38,288 nt of DNA from Crocinitomicaceae bacterium (lineage in GTDB: Bacteria > Bacteroidota > Bacteroidia > Flavobacteriales_D > Crocinitomicaceae): contig JAKVAS010000014.1 in assembly GCA_022448165.1 (NCBI GenBank), positions 2,713 through 41,000 of the forward strand, written 5' to 3'. Within the stretch, counting starts at the first letter, position 1; each line of letters starts with the position of its first letter. Under the pieces are notes generated by a model. That model worked only from the letters and a program-made list of their open reading frames with translations, did not search any database and had not been told where the DNA came from. The translations under genes and the position numbers were made by a program. This document shows, piece by piece, positions 25,915-33,039 of this stretch.

Positions 25915-26757
25915 ATGCCAATTGAGAATATACCAGAAATCTATATTAAAGATAAAAACCAAAATCCTGATTTATTCGTTTATGATTTAAAAATGACCAA
26001 TGATGTTGTCAAAAGCAAAGTCAATTTGGGTATGAATATGTTTAGTTTCTTACAAATTGGGAAAAAACAGGTTCATTTCGCTAGCGCATCCATTACTGTT
26101 GACAAAGATCAATCTTTACTCCTTAAAAGAGGTAACTGGTTATGGACAGAGCTTCTTGATTCAGAAGCCGATTACTTTTGCAAACTGTTATTCTTTTCAG
26201 AAAACAAACTCAAAGATTTTTTGGAAAAGCATACAGAATCTCTTCTGGTAAAAACAGACATAAAGCCATATTTTACAATACATAATGATCAATATATTCG
26301 TTCATACTTGGCTTCACTTTCAACAATTATTGAGACCCCAACAACCTTTATAGAGAACTTACTCTCTGTTAAATTTGAAGAACTAATGCTTTATCTTCTA
26401 CAGAAATATGGAGATAATTTTGAAATTTATCTTCGATCTCTAATCCAAAAAGAAACATCTCCTTTTAAAAAGATTATTGAGGACAATACTCATTCCAATC
26501 TAAAACTTGAAGAACTCGCCTTTTTATGCAATATGAGTCTATCAACTTTTAAACGACGCTTCGTTGGCGAATACAAAATACCACCTGGAAAATGGCTACA
26601 AGATAAACGCCTCCAAAACGCAAAGAAAATTCTATCACAAGGTAATCTAACCCCATCTGATATCTATCTAGATTTTGGATATAACAGTCTTTCAAATTTT
26701 AGCATTGCATTTAAAAACAAATTTGGTTTTAGTCCAAAAGAAACCCTCAAAAAGTAA
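25915..26757 (+). CDS. AraC-family transcriptional regulator
   Basis: A 280-residue regulator. The C-terminal 100 residues form two helix-turn-helix motifs: LKLEELAFLCNMSLSTFKRR followed by LTPSDIYLDFGYNSLSNFSI and the signature FKNKFGFSPKE. The N-terminal 170 residues are a sensing domain without a cupin signature that I can recognise. The gene is preceded by 131 bp and has no visible partner on the same strand. The GlcG/HbpS-type gene 105 bp downstream has its own -7 box and could be a target, which is a guess. Confidence 0.9.
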   Translation: MPIENIPEIYIKDKNQNPDLFVYDLKMTNDVVKSKVNLGMNMFSFLQIGKKQVHFASASITVDKDQSLLLKRGNWLWTELLDSEADYFCKLLFFSENKLKDFLEKHTESLLVKTDIKPYFTIHNDQYIRSYLASLSTIIETPTTFIENLLSVKFEELMLYLLQKYGDNFEIYLRSLIQKETSPFKKIIEDNTHSNLKLEELAFLCNMSLSTFKRRFVGEYKIPPGKWLQDKRLQNAKKILSQGNLTPSDIYLDFGYNSLSNFSIAFKNKFGFSPKETLKK

Positions 26758-26862: not shown

Positions 26863-27261
26863 ATGAATATTACATTAGCTCAAGCTGAAAAAATTATATC
26901 ATCAGCAAAAGAAAAATCAATTGAAATCAACACAAAAATGAATATTGCCATTGTCGATTCTGGAGCACACCTCGTTGCATTTAGTAGAATGGACGGTGCC
27001 TGGCTCGGATCACTAGACATTGCAATCAAAAAAGCGAAAACAGCTCGACACTTTGACATGAATACAGGAATCATTGGAGAACTATCTCAACCTGGATCCC
27101 CATTATACAATATTGAACATTCAAATAATGGACTGATTACTTTTCCAGGAGGTGTCCCAATAAAAAATGCATCTGGTGAAATTATTGGAGCAATTGGAGT
27201 AAGTGGAAGTTCAGTTGAAAACGATCACATAGTAGCAGAAACTGGAGCGTTATCAATATAG
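26863..27261 (+). CDS. GlcG/HbpS-family (DUF336) protein
   Basis: A 132-residue single-domain protein with the recognisable family blocks: [68 protein letters not shown] and DHIVAETG. There is no signal peptide, so it is a cytoplasmic member. HbpS of Streptomyces binds haem and senses redox, while GlcG is found with glycolate oxidation. The haem or metal ligands cannot be fixed from sequence alone. A perfect terminator hairpin follows 29 nt after the stop. Confidence 0.88.
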
Positions 27262-27439: not shown

Positions 27440-29629
27440 ATGAAAGATTTTTTACTGATTACTCCCCCATTCACACAACTCAACACGCCTTATCCAGCAA
27501 CGGCTTACCTAAAAGGTTTTTTGAATACAAAAGGGTTTAGCTCTTATCAAATGGATTTAGGGATTGAAGTAATTCTTGAGCTTTTCACATCTAAACGACT
27601 TGGCTTCATCTTTGAAACAGCCTTTGAAAATGGTTACATTCAATCAGCAAATTCACAACGAATTCATTCATTAAGAAATGAGTATATTCAATCAATTGAT
27701 TCCGTAATACTATTCCTACAAGGTAAAAATCCAACATTAGCTCGGCAAATATGCACTATGAATTTTCTTCCGCAAGCTTCTCGATTTGAAGAGCTCGCAG
27801 AATTGGAGTGGGCATTTGGATCTATGGGAATTCAAGATCAAGCAAAACATCTTGCCACACTATATCTTGAAGACATTTCTGATTTTATAACGGAATGTAT
27901 CGATGAAAATTTTGGGTTCAGTCAATATGCGGAAAGGCTTGGGAGAAGTGCAAGTAACTTTAATGAAATCTATGAGCAGCTGGAGGAGGACTTAAATTAT
28001 ATTGACTCCATTTCACTACAACTTCTCGAATTAACAATTCAGGAATATCACCCGAAATTAGTTTGTCTTTCTGTACCATTTCCAGGAAATCTATTCAGTG
28101 CATTTCGGTGCGCCCAATACATTAAAGAAAAGCATCCGAGTATAAAAATAGCAATGGGTGGAGGATTTCCAAATACAGAACTAAGATCACTAACAGAACC
28201 TCGCGTTTTTGATTTCTTTGATTTTATCTCACTCGATGATGGAGAACTTCCCATAGAACTCATCTACAAATCACTTAGTTCTTTCAATGAAAGTTTCAAC
28301 TTCAAGCGAACCTATATTCGTGAAAATGGAGTTGTAATCTATAAAAACAATTCTCAAGTAAATGACTACCGTCAATCAGAATTAGGAACTCCTGACTACT
28401 CCGACCTTATGCTGGATCGATACATCTCAGTAATTGGCGTTGCTAATCCCATGCATAGTTTATGGAGTGACGGAAGATGGAACAAACTTACGATGGCACA
28501 TGGTTGTTATTGGGGAAAATGTACTTTTTGCGATATTTCCCTTGATTACATTAAACTTTATGAGCCACTAACAGCAACGCTCCTGGTAGATCGAATGGAA
28601 GAAATTATTGCCCAAACTGGAGAAACAGGGTTTCACTTCGTAGATGAAGCAGCTCCACCAGCCTTAATGCGCGCATTAGCAATCGAAATTATTCGTCGAA
28701 AATTAGTGGTTACTTGGTGGACAAATATACGTTTCGAAAAAAGCTTCACATCAACTCTTTGTACATTACTCAAACACTCTGGATGCATTGCTATTTCCGG
28801 TGGACTAGAAGTAGCATCCGATCGGCTATTAAAATTAATTGACAAGGGAGTGTCAGTTGAACAAGTTGCACGTGTAACGCGTAACTTAACTGATTCGGGG
28901 ATATTAGTCCACTCCTATTTGATGTATGGATATCCAACTCAAACTGTACAAGAGACAATAGACAGTTTAGAAATGGTTCGTCAACTTTTTGAGTTAGGAA
29001 TTATTCAATCTGGTTTTTGGCACCAATTCGCGCTCACAACTCACAGTCCAATAGGAGAAAGTCCCGATGAATACGGATTAGTTCCTGAATATGACTCTAT
29101 TTCCTTTGCACACAACGATATCCAATTCAAGGATAAAACAGGAATAAATCATGAAAAATTTAGTTTTGGATTAAAAAAATCGTTATTCAATTTTATGCAT
29201 GGAATTGGCTTTGATATACCCGTTAATGATTGGTTTGAATTCAAAGTTCCGAAAACAAAAATTAGAGCTGACTTTATCGAATTGGCCATTAATTCTGAAC
29301 CTTTCCCTGTTGCAAAACCTAGTTCAAAACCTATCTGGTTAGGTGGAACACCATTAATTTCTAATTATTCAGTTACTAAAAAGGGTAAAACGAAAGAAAT
29401 GACGGAATTAACAATTCACTTAAAAGATGATTGTGTTGAAGTCAGCATGGAAGAATCCAAAGCCAACTGGTTTCTGGATCAAATTAAAACATTATCAATT
29501 TACAATACTGATCAACGTACAATTGCTCAATTAAAGATTGATTTCGAAGCCAATTTTGATGATTTTGAGATCTTCTGGTATTCAAAAGCAATTATGACAC
29601 TCAAAGAAACTGGAATACTCATTATCTAA
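27440..29629 (+). CDS. Cobalamin-binding-type radical SAM protein with CX4CX2C motif
   Basis: A 729-residue protein. The N terminus (DFLLITPPFTQLNTPYP, LKGFLNTKGF) is the first part of a B12-binding-like Rossmann domain, which resumes only at about 205 (LVCLSVPFPGNLFSAFRCA, IKIAMGGGFPNTE). About 150 mostly helical residues are inserted between. No DxHxxG motif is seen. The radical SAM core begins with three cysteines C356, C361 and C364 in HGCYWGKCTFCD, a CX4CX2C spacing rather than CX3CX2C. It continues with FHFVDEAAPPALM, SGGLEVASDRLLKLIDKG and SYLMYGYPTQ. About 130 further residues follow. Substrate unknown; methyl transfer or another radical modification is possible. The next gene, a 60-residue membrane protein, starts 77 bp after its stop. 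Confidence 0.88.
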   Translation: MKDFLLITPPFTQLNTPYPATAYLKGFLNTKGFSSYQMDLGIEVILELFTSKRLGFIFETAFENGYIQSANSQRIHSLRNEYIQSIDSVILFLQGKNPTLARQICTMNFLPQASRFEELAELEWAFGSMGIQDQAKHLATLYLEDISDFITECIDENFGFSQYAERLGRSASNFNEIYEQLEEDLNYIDSISLQLLELTIQEYHPKLVCLSVPFPGNLFSAFRCAQYIKEKHPSIKIAMGGGFPNTELRSLTEPRVFDFFDFISLDDGELPIELIYKSLSSFNESFNFKRTYIRENGVVIYKNNSQVNDYRQSELGTPDYSDLMLDRYISVIGVANPMHSLWSDGRWNKLTMAHGCYWGKCTFCDISLDYIKLYEPLTATLLVDRMEEIIAQTGETGFHFVDEAAPPALMRALAIEIIRRKLVVTWWTNIRFEKSFTSTLCTLLKHSGCIAISGGLEVASDRLLKLIDKGVSVEQVARVTRNLTDSGILVHSYLMYGYPTQTVQETIDSLEMVRQLFELGIIQSGFWHQFALTTHSPIGESPDEYGLVPEYDSISFAHNDIQFKDKTGINHEKFSFGLKKSLFNFMHGIGFDIPVNDWFEFKVPKTKIRADFIELAINSEPFPVAKPSSKPIWLGGTPLISNYSVTKKGKTKEMTELTIHLKDDCVEVSMEESKANWFLDQIKTLSIYNTDQRTIAQLKIDFEANFDDFEIFWYSKAIMTLKETGILII

Positions 29630-29706: not shown

Positions 29707-29889
29707 ATGACTAATGAAAAAATAGTCAGTTTGGGGATCACTATAGGAGTAGTTCTCGGAACCACTGTCGGAGTAATAACAAATCATCTTCTTTTTTGGC
29801 TTAGCACTGGAGTAATAATTGGTTCGGCAATTGGAACCTCCTTAATGAAACACCGAAAAGGCAAAAGAGATAATAATTCAACAAAATAA
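29707..29889 (+). CDS. Small membrane protein (60 residues), glycine-rich hairpin
   Basis: A 60-residue protein with two hydrophobic segments rich in Gly and small residues (LGITIGVVLGTTVGVI and FWLSTGVIIGSAIGTSL) and a basic tail (KHRKGKRDNNSTK). It is probably a two-helix inner-membrane hairpin of the glycine-zipper type. It sits between the radical SAM gene and the sigma-factor gene. Its stop codon is 1 base before the first promoter box of sigZ. It could be a precursor-like or stress-associated membrane peptide, but nothing shows this. Confidence 0.6.
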   Translation: MTNEKIVSLGITIGVVLGTTVGVITNHLLFWLSTGVIIGSAIGTSLMKHRKGKRDNNSTK

Positions 29890-29890
29890 A

Positions 29891-29919
29891 TGCGTCTTTA
29901 TTCAAACCGTACGTCTTTA
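29891..29919 (+). promoter_or_regulatory. Two-box ECF-type promoter of sigZ
   Basis: TGCGTC at 29891 and CGTCTTTA at 29912-29919, 21 bp start to start, are repeated with the same spacing before the Cys-rich peptide gene. CGTC is a known -10 core of many ECF sigma promoters. The predicted start of transcription is near 29924, just before the sigZ ATG at 29932, which suggests autoregulation. Confidence 0.55.
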
Positions 29920-29931
29920 AAATAAAAAATC

Positions 29932-30465
29932 ATGACAACTGAAGCAATCTGGAAAGATTTCGCGAGCCAACTGCTAGGCTTTATTAAGGCCCGAGTACAT
30001 AGTCCTGAAAATGCCGAAGATATTCTACAAGATGTTTTTATAAAGATTCACCAACAATCAAATCATCTGAATGATAAAACAAAACTAACAAGTTGGATTT
30101 ATCAAATAACTAGAAATACAATCATCGATTTTTATCGAAAAAAGAAAATCACCTCCTCGGAAAATATCATTTCTGAAATTAGTGAAGAAGTATCCCCTCT
30201 AACAGATTTTAAGTTTATTCATTGTTTAATGCCTTTTGTAAAAGAATTACCAAAAAAATATAGAGAAGCATTAGAGAAAACTATATATGGAGAATTCTCT
30301 CAAAAAGAATATGCAAAAGAAATAAACCTATCCTATTCTGCTACTAAATCCAGAGTTCAAAGAGCAAGAAAAATGGTCAAAGAATTATTCGTGTCCTGCT
30401 GTAATGTTAAAACAGACAGTTATGGAAATGTAATTTCTTCAAGGCATGACAATTGCAACTGTTAA
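29932..30465 (+). CDS. sigZ: SigZ-type ECF RNA polymerase sigma factor
   Basis: A 177-residue sigma factor with region 2 at about 8-75 (FIKARVHSPENAEDILQDVF, then KLTSWIYQITRNTIIDFYR) and region 4 at about 110-165 (LPKKYREALEKTIYGEFSQ, EYAKEINLSYSATKSRVQRAR). The short tail CCNVKTDSYGNVISSRHDNCNC-type ending carries four Cys and the YGNV motif that I associate with the SigZ group. There is no separate anti-sigma gene next to it. The Cys tail could be the sensor that makes the factor respond to metal or redox. Its own gene and the peptide gene behind it share a promoter pattern. Confidence 0.8.
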   Translation: MTTEAIWKDFASQLLGFIKARVHSPENAEDILQDVFIKIHQQSNHLNDKTKLTSWIYQITRNTIIDFYRKKKITSSENIISEISEEVSPLTDFKFIHCLMPFVKELPKKYREALEKTIYGEFSQKEYAKEINLSYSATKSRVQRARKMVKELFVSCCNVKTDSYGNVISSRHDNCNC

Positions 30466-30468
30466 TCT

Positions 30469-30497
30469 TGCGTCCTTTTGAAGGATCTCCGTCTTTA
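30469..30497 (+). promoter_or_regulatory. Second copy of the two-box ECF-type promoter, upstream of the Cys-rich peptide
   Basis: TGCGTC at 30469-30474 and CGTCTTTA at 30490-30497 have the same 21-bp start-to-start distance as the copy before sigZ. The 15-bp spacers differ (5 of 15 bases match), so the boxes themselves are conserved. The start of transcription would be near 30502, 25 nt before the peptide ATG. Confidence 0.55.
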
Positions 30498-30526: not shown

Positions 30527-30613
30527 ATGAAAAATCAAAAAACATGTTGCAACAATCAAAATGAAAACTGTAACTGTACATGTCAACCAAGCGAACCTCA
30601 AAGTTGTTGCTAA
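30527..30613 (+). CDS. Cysteine-rich 28-residue peptide
   Basis: A 28-codon ORF with seven cysteines among 28 residues: a CC pair after MKNQKT, then NCNCTC in the middle, and a final SCC. A CC and C-x-C-x-C pattern like this suggests a metal-binding, metallothionein-like peptide rather than a disulfide-bonded one, since there is no signal peptide. It has its own SigZ-type promoter and is followed 2 nt later by a perfect terminator. It is probably real although too short for most gene finders. Asn/Gln-rich composition is seen. No homolog is known to me. Confidence 0.65.
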   Translation: MKNQKTCCNNQNENCNCTCQPSEPQSCC

Positions 30614-30615
30614 AG

Positions 30616-30648
30616 AAAATGGGCTGTTTTCAATAACAGCCCATTTTT
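30616..30648 (+). terminator. Rho-independent terminator, perfect 13-bp stem
   Basis: AAAATGGGCTGTT and AACAGCCCATTTT form a perfect 13-bp inverted repeat with a 6-nt loop, followed by a T-tract. It begins 2 nt after the stop codon of the Cys-rich peptide, which supports that peptide gene. Confidence 0.85.
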
Positions 30649-32241: not shown

Positions 32242-33039
32242 ATGTCGATTTATCACGTACAAAACAAATGGGGAGATTCTCCATTACAAGAAGGCGGAAT
32301 CTTTGTTTTAGGTTCAAGAAGTAATCAAGAATTAGTGGATATCAATATCAATTCAACTGATGGTGGTAAAACTCTTACTGGAACTATAACCTACAAAGGT
32401 GAGGGCCCTATTGGATTTAAAGGGGTACAAGTTGCCGGAAACAATTACAAGGTAGAAAATGAATGGTCTAATACTTGGAACGATGGTGGAAATTGGGTTA
32501 TTGGAGCCAGAGATGGTCAAAATGTAGTAGCATTAAAAGTAAGTGCTATAGAAAACACCAAAGATTTAAAAGGAGAAGTTACTTATAAAGGAGAAGGACC
32601 TATTATTTTCCAAGGTAAGGAAACTGCAGGTAGCCCTTATGAGGTACAAAACCAGTGGGGAGGATCAAATTCTCCATGGAATCCAGGAGGAGTTTTTATT
32701 TTAGGCTCACGTGATGAGCAACAACCAATTGCATTAGATATAAAGTCTAATGACGAGGGTCAAACTTTTACTGGTACAATGACTTATGAAGGAGAAGGAC
32801 CTATTGATTTAGAGGCAACATTCGTTATGGGGAATGTTTACAGCGTGCAAAATAAATGGGGTGGTCCTTGGCATTCAGCTGGATACTTCATTATTGGTGC
32901 GAGAGAAAATCAAAGAGCGGTAGCGTTAAACGTTTCTTCTAATGATGAAGGGCAAACTCTTACTGGAAAAATGACTTATAAAGGAGAGGGGCCTATCGAG
33001 GTTACTGCATCAACTATTAATAAGTTAACAACGGCATAA
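32242..33039 (+). CDS. Four-repeat OAA/MBHA-type high-mannose lectin
   Basis: A 265-residue protein without a signal peptide. It consists of four homologous repeats of about 66 residues (1-67, 68-131, 132-198, 199-265). Each follows the pattern of Oscillatoria agglutinin: x-Y-x-V-x-N-x-W, then GSR/GAR plus Q, then TYxGEGPI. Four repeats equal the size of Myxococcus MBHA and Burkholderia BOA. In that family W-G-G of one repeat and R and E of another form each glycan site. R and E are kept in all repeats, but the WGG loop is WGD in repeat 1 and WSN in repeat 2 and intact only in 3 and 4. It is divergent from the decarboxylase gene and ends at a strong terminator. Confidence 0.93.
   Translation: MSIYHVQNKWGDSPLQEGGIFVLGSRSNQELVDININSTDGGKTLTGTITYKGEGPIGFKGVQVAGNNYKVENEWSNTWNDGGNWVIGARDGQNVVALKVSAIENTKDLKGEVTYKGEGPIIFQGKETAGSPYEVQNQWGGSNSPWNPGGVFILGSRDEQQPIALDIKSNDEGQTFTGTMTYEGEGPIDLEATFVMGNVYSVQNKWGGPWHSAGYFIIGARENQRAVALNVSSNDEGQTLTGKMTYKGEGPIEVTASTINKLTTA

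Follow-up and report, generated by a model that had tools for sequence, protein, structure and literature searches.

A Putative SigZ-Type Promoter before sigZ and a Cysteine-Rich Peptide Gene in a Crocinitomicaceae Genome, and Its Recurrence beside sigZ in Several Phyla

Introduction

A 38,288-nucleotide stretch of the genome of a Crocinitomicaceae bacterium (assembly GCA_022448165.1, contig JAKVAS010000014.1, positions 2,713 to 41,000 of the forward strand; below, the window) holds a gene for an ECF sigma factor of the SigZ type between two copies of the same pair of short boxes. One copy precedes sigZ; the other precedes a short open reading frame (ORF) rich in cysteine. Are these boxes promoters that the sigma factor encoded between them would read, and what might such promoters control? 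The original prediction, made from this stretch alone, was that SigZ drives both itself and the peptide. No SigZ role or regulon was found in the literature on SigZ and ECF sigma factors that could be consulted (open-licence papers, in parts only). The papers cited below by PMC number were likewise available in part, and what we take from them extends no further than those parts.

Results

The Cassette of the Window

The elements of the cassette are as follows.

29891..29919, forward strand: SigZ-type promoter copy 1 (putatively autoregulatory); -35 TGCGTCTTTA, -10 CGTCTTTA, 15 bp between TGCGTC and CGTC
29932..30465, forward strand: sigZ, ECF sigma factor of 177 amino acids (sigma2 and sigma4; TIGR02959; Pfam PF04542, PF08281)
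30469..30497, forward strand: SigZ-type promoter copy 2, before the Cys-rich peptide; -35 TGCGTCCTTTT, -10 CGTCTTTA, 15 bp between TGCGTC and CGTC
30527..30613, forward strand: Cys-rich peptide of 28 amino acids with 7 Cys (CC, CNCTC, CC), metallothionein-like by composition
30615..30648, forward strand: 14-bp hairpin after the peptide, a probable transcription terminator (fold -21.8 kcal/mol, z -4.66)

The boxes had been described as two identical pairs, TGCGTC at 29891 and 30469 and CGTCTTTA at 29912 and 30490, with 21 bp from the start of one box to the start of the next, and we find them so. The 15-bp spacers match at 5 positions when compared by eye, and each copy does begin one to three bases past the preceding stop codon: one base (29890) separates copy 1 from the ORF at 29707-29889, and three separate copy 2 from the sigZ stop. 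In copy 1, CGTC starts 20 nt before the sigZ start codon. The genome-wide search that the original prediction proposed, for TGCGTC-N15-CGTCTTTA in the 3.39 Mb assembly (3,392,760 bases, 306 contigs, 86.5% complete), returns these two copies and no third at zero or one mismatch, an outcome in favor of the prediction; a family-derived pattern, TGCRTCYTTN{12,13}CGTC, also finds exactly these two (reversed control: 1). Because the assembly is only 86.5% complete, a third copy may have been missed. The eight further matches that appear at two mismatches look like chance: counting everything up to that level, the reversed control gives 12 matches and the real pattern 10. Within the window, only the two named copies are free of mismatches; loose matching gives no excess, for at up to three mismatches there are 3 matches against 1.61 expected and 24 of 100 shuffles do as well. 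A scan for sigma-70-type promoters listed one site, under the shuffle mean of 4.6. A simple terminator scan did not list the hairpin.

The product of sigZ scores 177.8 bits against the SigZ model TIGR02959, above the curated cut-off of 168.65, and 188 against the equivalog NF007215, below its cut-off of 212; the protein is thus SigZ-like without being a member of the narrow equivalog. With sigma2 (PF04542, 52.4 bits) and sigma4 (PF08281, 37.7 bits) as its only regions, it meets the criterion for an ECF (group 4) sigma factor, and its best structural matches are ECF sigmas (e.g., SigW, 5wur, E-value 2.3e-5). No anti-sigma gene adjoining sigZ was recognised among the window ORFs or by NCBIfam and Pfam family searches.

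Several neighbors were considered as further parts of the module and rejected. The 60-amino-acid ORF at 29707-29889 was tried as an anti-sigma factor; in the 65 loci tested its only match is the window itself (locus L148), and it has no significant family match (15.2 bits to a plant malate dehydrogenase model, far below the cut-off). The phosphatidylserine decarboxylase gene lies on the opposite strand and has no match outside the window locus. The product of 27440-29629 is a radical SAM protein of the B12-binding kind, whose closest models are those of PhpK and of RiPP methyltransferases, with scores far below their cut-offs. When seven window proteins were compared with the 65 loci, this protein alone recurs beside another sigZ, in a single locus (L011), where a relative with 47% identity lies about 1 kb beyond sigZ. 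The cassette therefore seems to stand alone. Elsewhere in the window, 26863-27261 encodes an HbpS/GlcG-like protein (PF03928) adjoining an ExsA_N/AraC regulator at 25915-26757, and 32242-33039 encodes a 265-amino-acid protein with about four repeat copies containing "QNKWGG" and "ILGSR"-like parts, which by eye has a lectin-like look.

The Motif Tracks sigZ across Loci and Genomes

We collected SigZ loci by the protein alone, 105 including the window, of which 104 have distinct proteins, four repeats having been removed. One set holds the best 34 of 76 loci found by similarity to the window SigZ (L009-L042), the 42 weaker ones serving as a control. The other, of 74 loci, was gathered with TIGR02959. 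Of 47 SigZ-type matches in 395 genomes of the window's phylum, the best 30 entered it; the phylum of a Geobacter MAG (247 genomes) gave 4 loci, that of Paenibacillus (348 genomes) 22, and the class of Thiomargarita (274 genomes) 18. A site counts as beside sigZ if it lies no more than 300 bp upstream of the start of the gene, or in the interval that opens 60 bp ahead of the gene's end and closes 300 bp past it.

An exact TGCGTC-N15/16-CGTC stands beside sigZ in 54 of the 104 loci; with reversed boxes the count is 1 and with complemented boxes 0. Allowing one mismatch gives 79 of 104 (controls 10 and 4), which leaves 25 loci with no motif beside sigZ at that level; at two mismatches the test loses power (88 of 104, controls 36 and 32). 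The 42-locus control set has 7 sites at one mismatch, counting both strands. One of its members (L069) is a truncated SigZ preceded by the motif, so the true control is 41 loci.

Might the boxes instead be a direct-repeat operator for some unrelated DNA-binding regulator? CGTC is common to both, as such an operator would have it, and we nevertheless give the idea very little weight. The exact sites beside sigZ have a strand bias: 71 share the strand of sigZ and 2 are opposite. When the distance between TGCRTC and the second box was varied from 8 to 24 bp, 37 sites fell at 15 and 53 at 16, and three at the 15 other spacings together (90 of 93 at 15 or 16), the sharpness expected of a -35/-10 pair. 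The boxes of 109 sites, chosen at up to one mismatch, are conserved by choice; the unselected flanks are kept as well. TGCGTC is followed by C or T and then by a run of T (89, 93, 86, and 78% T), as in SigW promoters (PMC6713349), and CGTC is followed by T in 87%. The motif also tracks an ECF sigma gene.

This last point holds at the level of whole genomes. Among the 395 genomes, 46 have a SigZ-type match of 126 bits or more; the strict pattern TGCGTCYTTTN{11,12}CGTCT occurs in 15 of these and in 6 of the remaining 349 (p = 3e-11). For the reversed pattern there is no association (2 of 46 versus 17 of 349, p = 0.67). We set the 126-bit line ourselves, where the scores leave a gap; replacing it by the curated cut-off gives 6 of 14 and 15 of 381 (p = 2e-5). 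The strict pattern is absent from 31 of the 46 SigZ genomes. In the 34 genomes of the similarity-set loci there are 36 matches, in 25 genomes, against one control match; 33 lie within the SigZ loci of that set, and the other three are in one genome (G422), where one of them precedes a second SigZ-like gene (L127). In 42 SigZ genomes of other groups, the R-form of the pattern gives 40 matches in 34 genomes, again against one control match, and by coordinates 33 of the 40 lie about 1.2 kb or less from sigZ. Three genomes (G412, G419, G426) belong to both sets. Among the other seven R-form matches, one, on a different contig, precedes a protein that by eye resembles an ArsP-type permease found at another locus (L240 and L206, respectively); the ArsP-like gene is a possible target in trans.

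A blind count over the phylum, by comparison, finds 25 matches in 21 of 395 genomes, with control matches (counted by eye) in 19. Motif frequency taken blindly is thus a weak test, and only conditioning on SigZ or on the SigZ locus separates signal from chance. Sixteen of the 25 blind matches have a SigZ-type gene no more than 1 kb away (in G242 that gene scores only 116.6 bits); among the nine that have none, one (G345) sits before a SigZ-like fragment.

K139, S140, and R144 are kept in 96, 91, and 97 of 99 aligned SigZ proteins (five of the 104 sequences, L193, L195, L174, L023, and L190, were left out of residue counts as incomplete or misread frames), and from their place in the recognition helix we infer that they correspond to residues with which SigW contacts the -35. 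In the B. subtilis SigZ promoter, C at -34 is opposite Gly and Ser, while SigW has two Thr that read A-34 (PMC6713349). Of the 99 proteins, 71 have Gly and 15 have Ala at position 137, which fits TGC in place of TGA. We consider it strongly supported that the SigZ encoded between the boxes reads them as promoters, with TGCGTCYTTT as the -35 and CGTCT as the -10, a conclusion inferred from comparison of sequences.

Inferred Autoregulation Is Mainly a Bacteroidota Trait

The comparison supports the proposal that SigZ drives itself and the peptide, in that the motif stands beside sigZ in several phyla and tracks it; there are no transcription data. In the window, copy 1 satisfies the criterion for an autoregulated ECF module, a promoter of its own type before the sigma gene. 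Taken beyond the window, the autoregulatory half has to be narrowed. Within one mismatch, 31 of the 54 Bacteroidota loci have an upstream copy (21 have both copies), as do 1 of the 23 Bacillota loci, 2 of the 18 gammaproteobacterial, none of the 4 of the Geobacter phylum, and 1 of the 5 others, so that Bacteroidota contribute 31 of the 35 loci that have one. A downstream copy is found in 33 of 54, 18 of 23, 13 of 18, 2 of 4, and 2 of 5 of the same groups. Since the upstream copy is rare outside Bacteroidota, where the promoter usually precedes only the neighboring gene, the general rule appears to be that SigZ drives its neighbor, and self-control is added mainly in Bacteroidota. In one published account, the sigma genes tested, sigZ among them, are said to report on their own sigma factors (PMC13055313). 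In seven Bacteroidota loci the sigZ start codon follows the first base of CGTC by only 12-13 nt, from which we infer a leaderless or nearly leaderless message.

The Cysteine-Rich Peptides and the Cysteines of SigZ

Small Cys-rich peptides recur at these loci. In 25 of the 105 loci, all in the Bacteroidota set, a Cys-rich ORF is found no more than 450 nt from sigZ; on the opposite strand none of the 105 has one. The promoter is present at up to one mismatch in 22 of the 25 (exceptions L039, L166, and L167), and two more loci (L156, L164) have a Cys-rich peptide after the promoter. In six loci (L036, L039, L166, L167, L168, L170) the peptide precedes sigZ. Apart from the density of Cys, the peptides have little in common. 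Motifs such as CXC and CC are typical of bacterial metallothioneins; the window peptide resembles these in being short and Cys-rich with both motifs, and differs from them in that it matches no NCBIfam or Pfam family. It does not meet the criterion for a known metallothionein family, and metal binding is inferred from its composition only.

Two other readings of this ORF have to be weighed. It might go untranslated, the second promoter making a small RNA; the transcript would indeed be short and end in a hairpin. This is hard to reconcile with Cys-rich ORFs at the same position in so many loci and never on the opposite strand, or with four Flammeovirga peptides of 41 amino acids (L016, L019, L020, L022) that keep all 11 Cys while their other residues vary, and we judge it very unlikely. 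The peptide might also be translated without being a chelator, as a modified (RiPP) product or as a feedback inhibitor of SigZ. Here one can point to the radical SAM gene upstream and its relative near the L011 cassette, and to the fact that the peptide and the SigZ tail are both Cys-rich. Yet that gene recurs in only one of 64 other loci (flanks of 1.5-3 kb), and the peptides are alike in little but Cys density; we judge it improbable. A chelating thiolate peptide remains our preferred reading.

The cysteines of SigZ itself are also conserved. C156, C157, C175, and C177 form a tail at or after the end of sigma4 (CC...CNC), and C98 lies at the start of the sigma4 region; in the 99 aligned proteins C157 is kept in 96, C156 in 88, C177 in 88, and C98 in 76. 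In the AlphaFold model the last helix (135-157) ends with C156/C157, and C98 is within helix 93-104. The model has a mean pLDDT of 82.2 and a pTM of 0.46, and its domain arrangement is therefore not trustworthy. Solved structures align to the family profile no further than about position 155 of 176, which leaves the tail without a solved counterpart in the matched structures.

Genes That Follow the Promoter

What does the promoter precede elsewhere? We classed the genes that follow it (89 entries in 87 loci) by BLAST to representatives, ten representatives or odd cases each being checked against NCBIfam and Pfam. The checks identify an arsenite methyltransferase, arsM (L172; NF008823, 369.6 bits, cut-off 263), two ArsI/CadI metalloenzymes (L151 and L212; NF041414, 125.5 and 179.4 bits, cut-off 116), HgcA (L031; 419.9 bits, cut-off 275), PhzF (L169; 177 bits, cut-off 76.2), ArsP_1 (L211; 259 bits), and DUF2703 (L179; 131 bits). 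The gene at L011, classed by BLAST as DUF2703, is actually a Cys-rich peptide, and the Cys-rich class of L210 is spurious. By locus, there are 12 arsM, 10 ArsI/CadI, 5 ArsP-type permeases, 17 DUF2703 (18 less the misassigned L011), 1 HgcA, 1 PhzF, and 2 ferredoxin-like genes; 16 of the 89 fit no class.

The small Cys-rich peptide is a frequent target in Bacteroidota. In the Bacillota set, DUF2703, often with extra CC ends, is the commonest (15 loci; L176-L197 and L200), and several ArsI and DUF2703 targets have Cys-rich ends. arsM targets span five taxonomic groups and ArsI/CadI two. In flanks of 1.5-3 kb, arsM- or ArsI-like genes occur at 28 of 104 SigZ loci and at none of 42 control loci. 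When any of arsM, ArsI, ArsP, or DUF2703 is counted in the fetched flank, the figure is 54 of 104; the 42 control loci (flanks up to 3 kb) show one weak ArsP match (L043) and nothing else. Several of these names are not specific to arsenic. ArsI/CadI also covers cadmium, and the ArsP-type permeases have similarity to Cu/Zn or SaoE efflux models as well, in every case below cut-off. DUF2703 is likewise not arsenic-only. It is described as having a thioredoxin fold and, in a Rhodococcus ars cluster, is induced with the cluster (under 10-fold) (PMC6514093).

In one locus, from a Salinivirgaceae MAG (L031:3001-4700), hgcA (NF040863) directly follows sigZ and a perfect SigZ-type promoter. In Pseudodesulfovibrio, an arsenic-responsive ArsR is reported to control hgcAB (PMC10349881), and in other cases ars genes are found close to hgcAB (PMC7438021); the word "sigma" is absent from the main text of both papers. 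As a separate observation, a Lutibacter locus (L141:840-3200) has two SigZ-type promoters facing each other, whose targets, named by eye, are a PLP-dependent aminotransferase/C-S lyase-like gene and a flavodoxin-like gene.

Discussion

Promoter identity, spacing, the link to SigZ, and the conservation of cysteines are the parts of the argument that sequence comparison supports. On these we propose, as a probable reading, that the SigZ of the window is autoregulated and drives a Cys-rich thiolate peptide, with a thiophilic metal or metalloid as the likely gate and the peptide as its chelator; the gating, the role of arsenic, and the chelation are inferences. A metal(loid) entering the cell would be bound by thiols of SigZ, at the conserved Cys of the sigma4 end and tail. 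The metal-bound SigZ would then engage RNA polymerase and fire its own promoter and that of the peptide; of the whole chain, it is the promoter step that we regard as well supported by the comparative evidence. The ribosomally made peptide would chelate the same metal(loid) and, by competing for it, shut the loop down. The only visible product of the window module is this metallothionein-like peptide.

Which metal(loid) would it be? Arsenite is our leading candidate because arsenic enzymes stand out most clearly among the enzyme targets (arsM, in five groups). With the same promoter logic, the signal in this host could instead be Cd, Zn, Cu, Hg, or a general thiol or electrophile stress, and we rate this only slightly short of an even chance. 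CorE responds to Cu and CorE2 to Cd and Zn (PMC8999054). The flanks fetched around the Cys-peptide cassettes showed no arsenic gene, and elsewhere the motif precedes genes that by eye look like sulfur metabolism (a hexapeptide-transferase protein in L028, the PLP enzyme in L141). Against a non-arsenic signal stand the arsM and ArsI/CadI targets, with the taxonomic spread given above. Against arsenite in the window it also counts that no arsM gene above cut-off was found in its 86.5%-complete assembly (one match, 134.6 bits against 263).

It is tempting to generalize. We suggest tentatively, as a conjecture that could well fail, that SigZ (ECF238) is a stand-alone class of arsenic-sensing sigma factors, in which arsenite would bind the CC and tail cysteines, and that its code, TGCRTCYTTT-N11/12-CGTCT, extends from Bacillota to Bacteroidota. 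Bacteroidota would often have swapped arsM, ArsI, or ArsP for thiol peptides, and one lineage would control hgcA. If this is true, a cross-phylum promoter code with chemically agreeing targets gives SigZ a testable function, and a thiophilic-metal or arsenic sensor would be a sigma factor, not a repressor. It would also point to a group of small Cys-rich peptides, those of the 25 loci above, and the hgcA link, seen in one locus, bears on the control of mercury methylation.

Comparison with Known Systems

Some of this is already known and some was not met in the literature. The open-licence papers available in part hold no report that we could find of a cross-phylum promoter, of Cys-peptide targets, or of arsenic-type targets of SigZ; the 2021 ECF classification and the CorE2 paper were outside this survey and may contain the group's promoter logo. 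What was in print is a B. subtilis SigZ -35 with C at -34 (PMC6713349). The window SigZ belongs to the same TIGR02959 family as that protein, which one source lists only as "ECF" (PMC10141391), and the C at -34 fits TGC.

Promoters of the SigW type are also similar. The SigZ motif differs from them inside the -35, where it has CGT (or CAT) instead of AAA. The -10 of SigW-type promoters is CGTA. Their -35, TGAAAC, shares with the SigZ motif a TG start, a C end, and a run of T after it (PMC6713349).

Among sigma factors, CorE and CorE2 of Myxococcus xanthus also invite comparison. ECF238 is "also called SigZ" (PMC9239204) and includes CorE2, while CorE, on which the former ECF44 was founded, has no class in the new scheme; the review that places CorE2 in ECF238 itself doubts the merger (PMC8999054). 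Neither factor has a known anti-sigma; both are activated by metal through a C-terminal Cys-rich domain (PMC8999054, PMC3107203, PMC9023288) and control a small metal-stress regulon (PMC8999054, PMC3107203). In place of peptides or arsM, CorE targets a copper oxidase, copper ATPases, and a heavy-metal-associated protein. The window SigZ likewise lacks a recognised anti-sigma and meets the criterion of a Cys-rich C-terminal extension for CorE-like factors (former ECF44). It differs in the spacing of its Cys and in lacking the CXC of the sigma2-sigma4 linker, and because it has a single linker Cys (C98) in place of CXC we do not file it as CorE-like. About 85% of ECF238 also lack the linker CXC (PMC8999054). 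The window SigZ may nonetheless work as the CorE-like factors do, metal activation being inferred.
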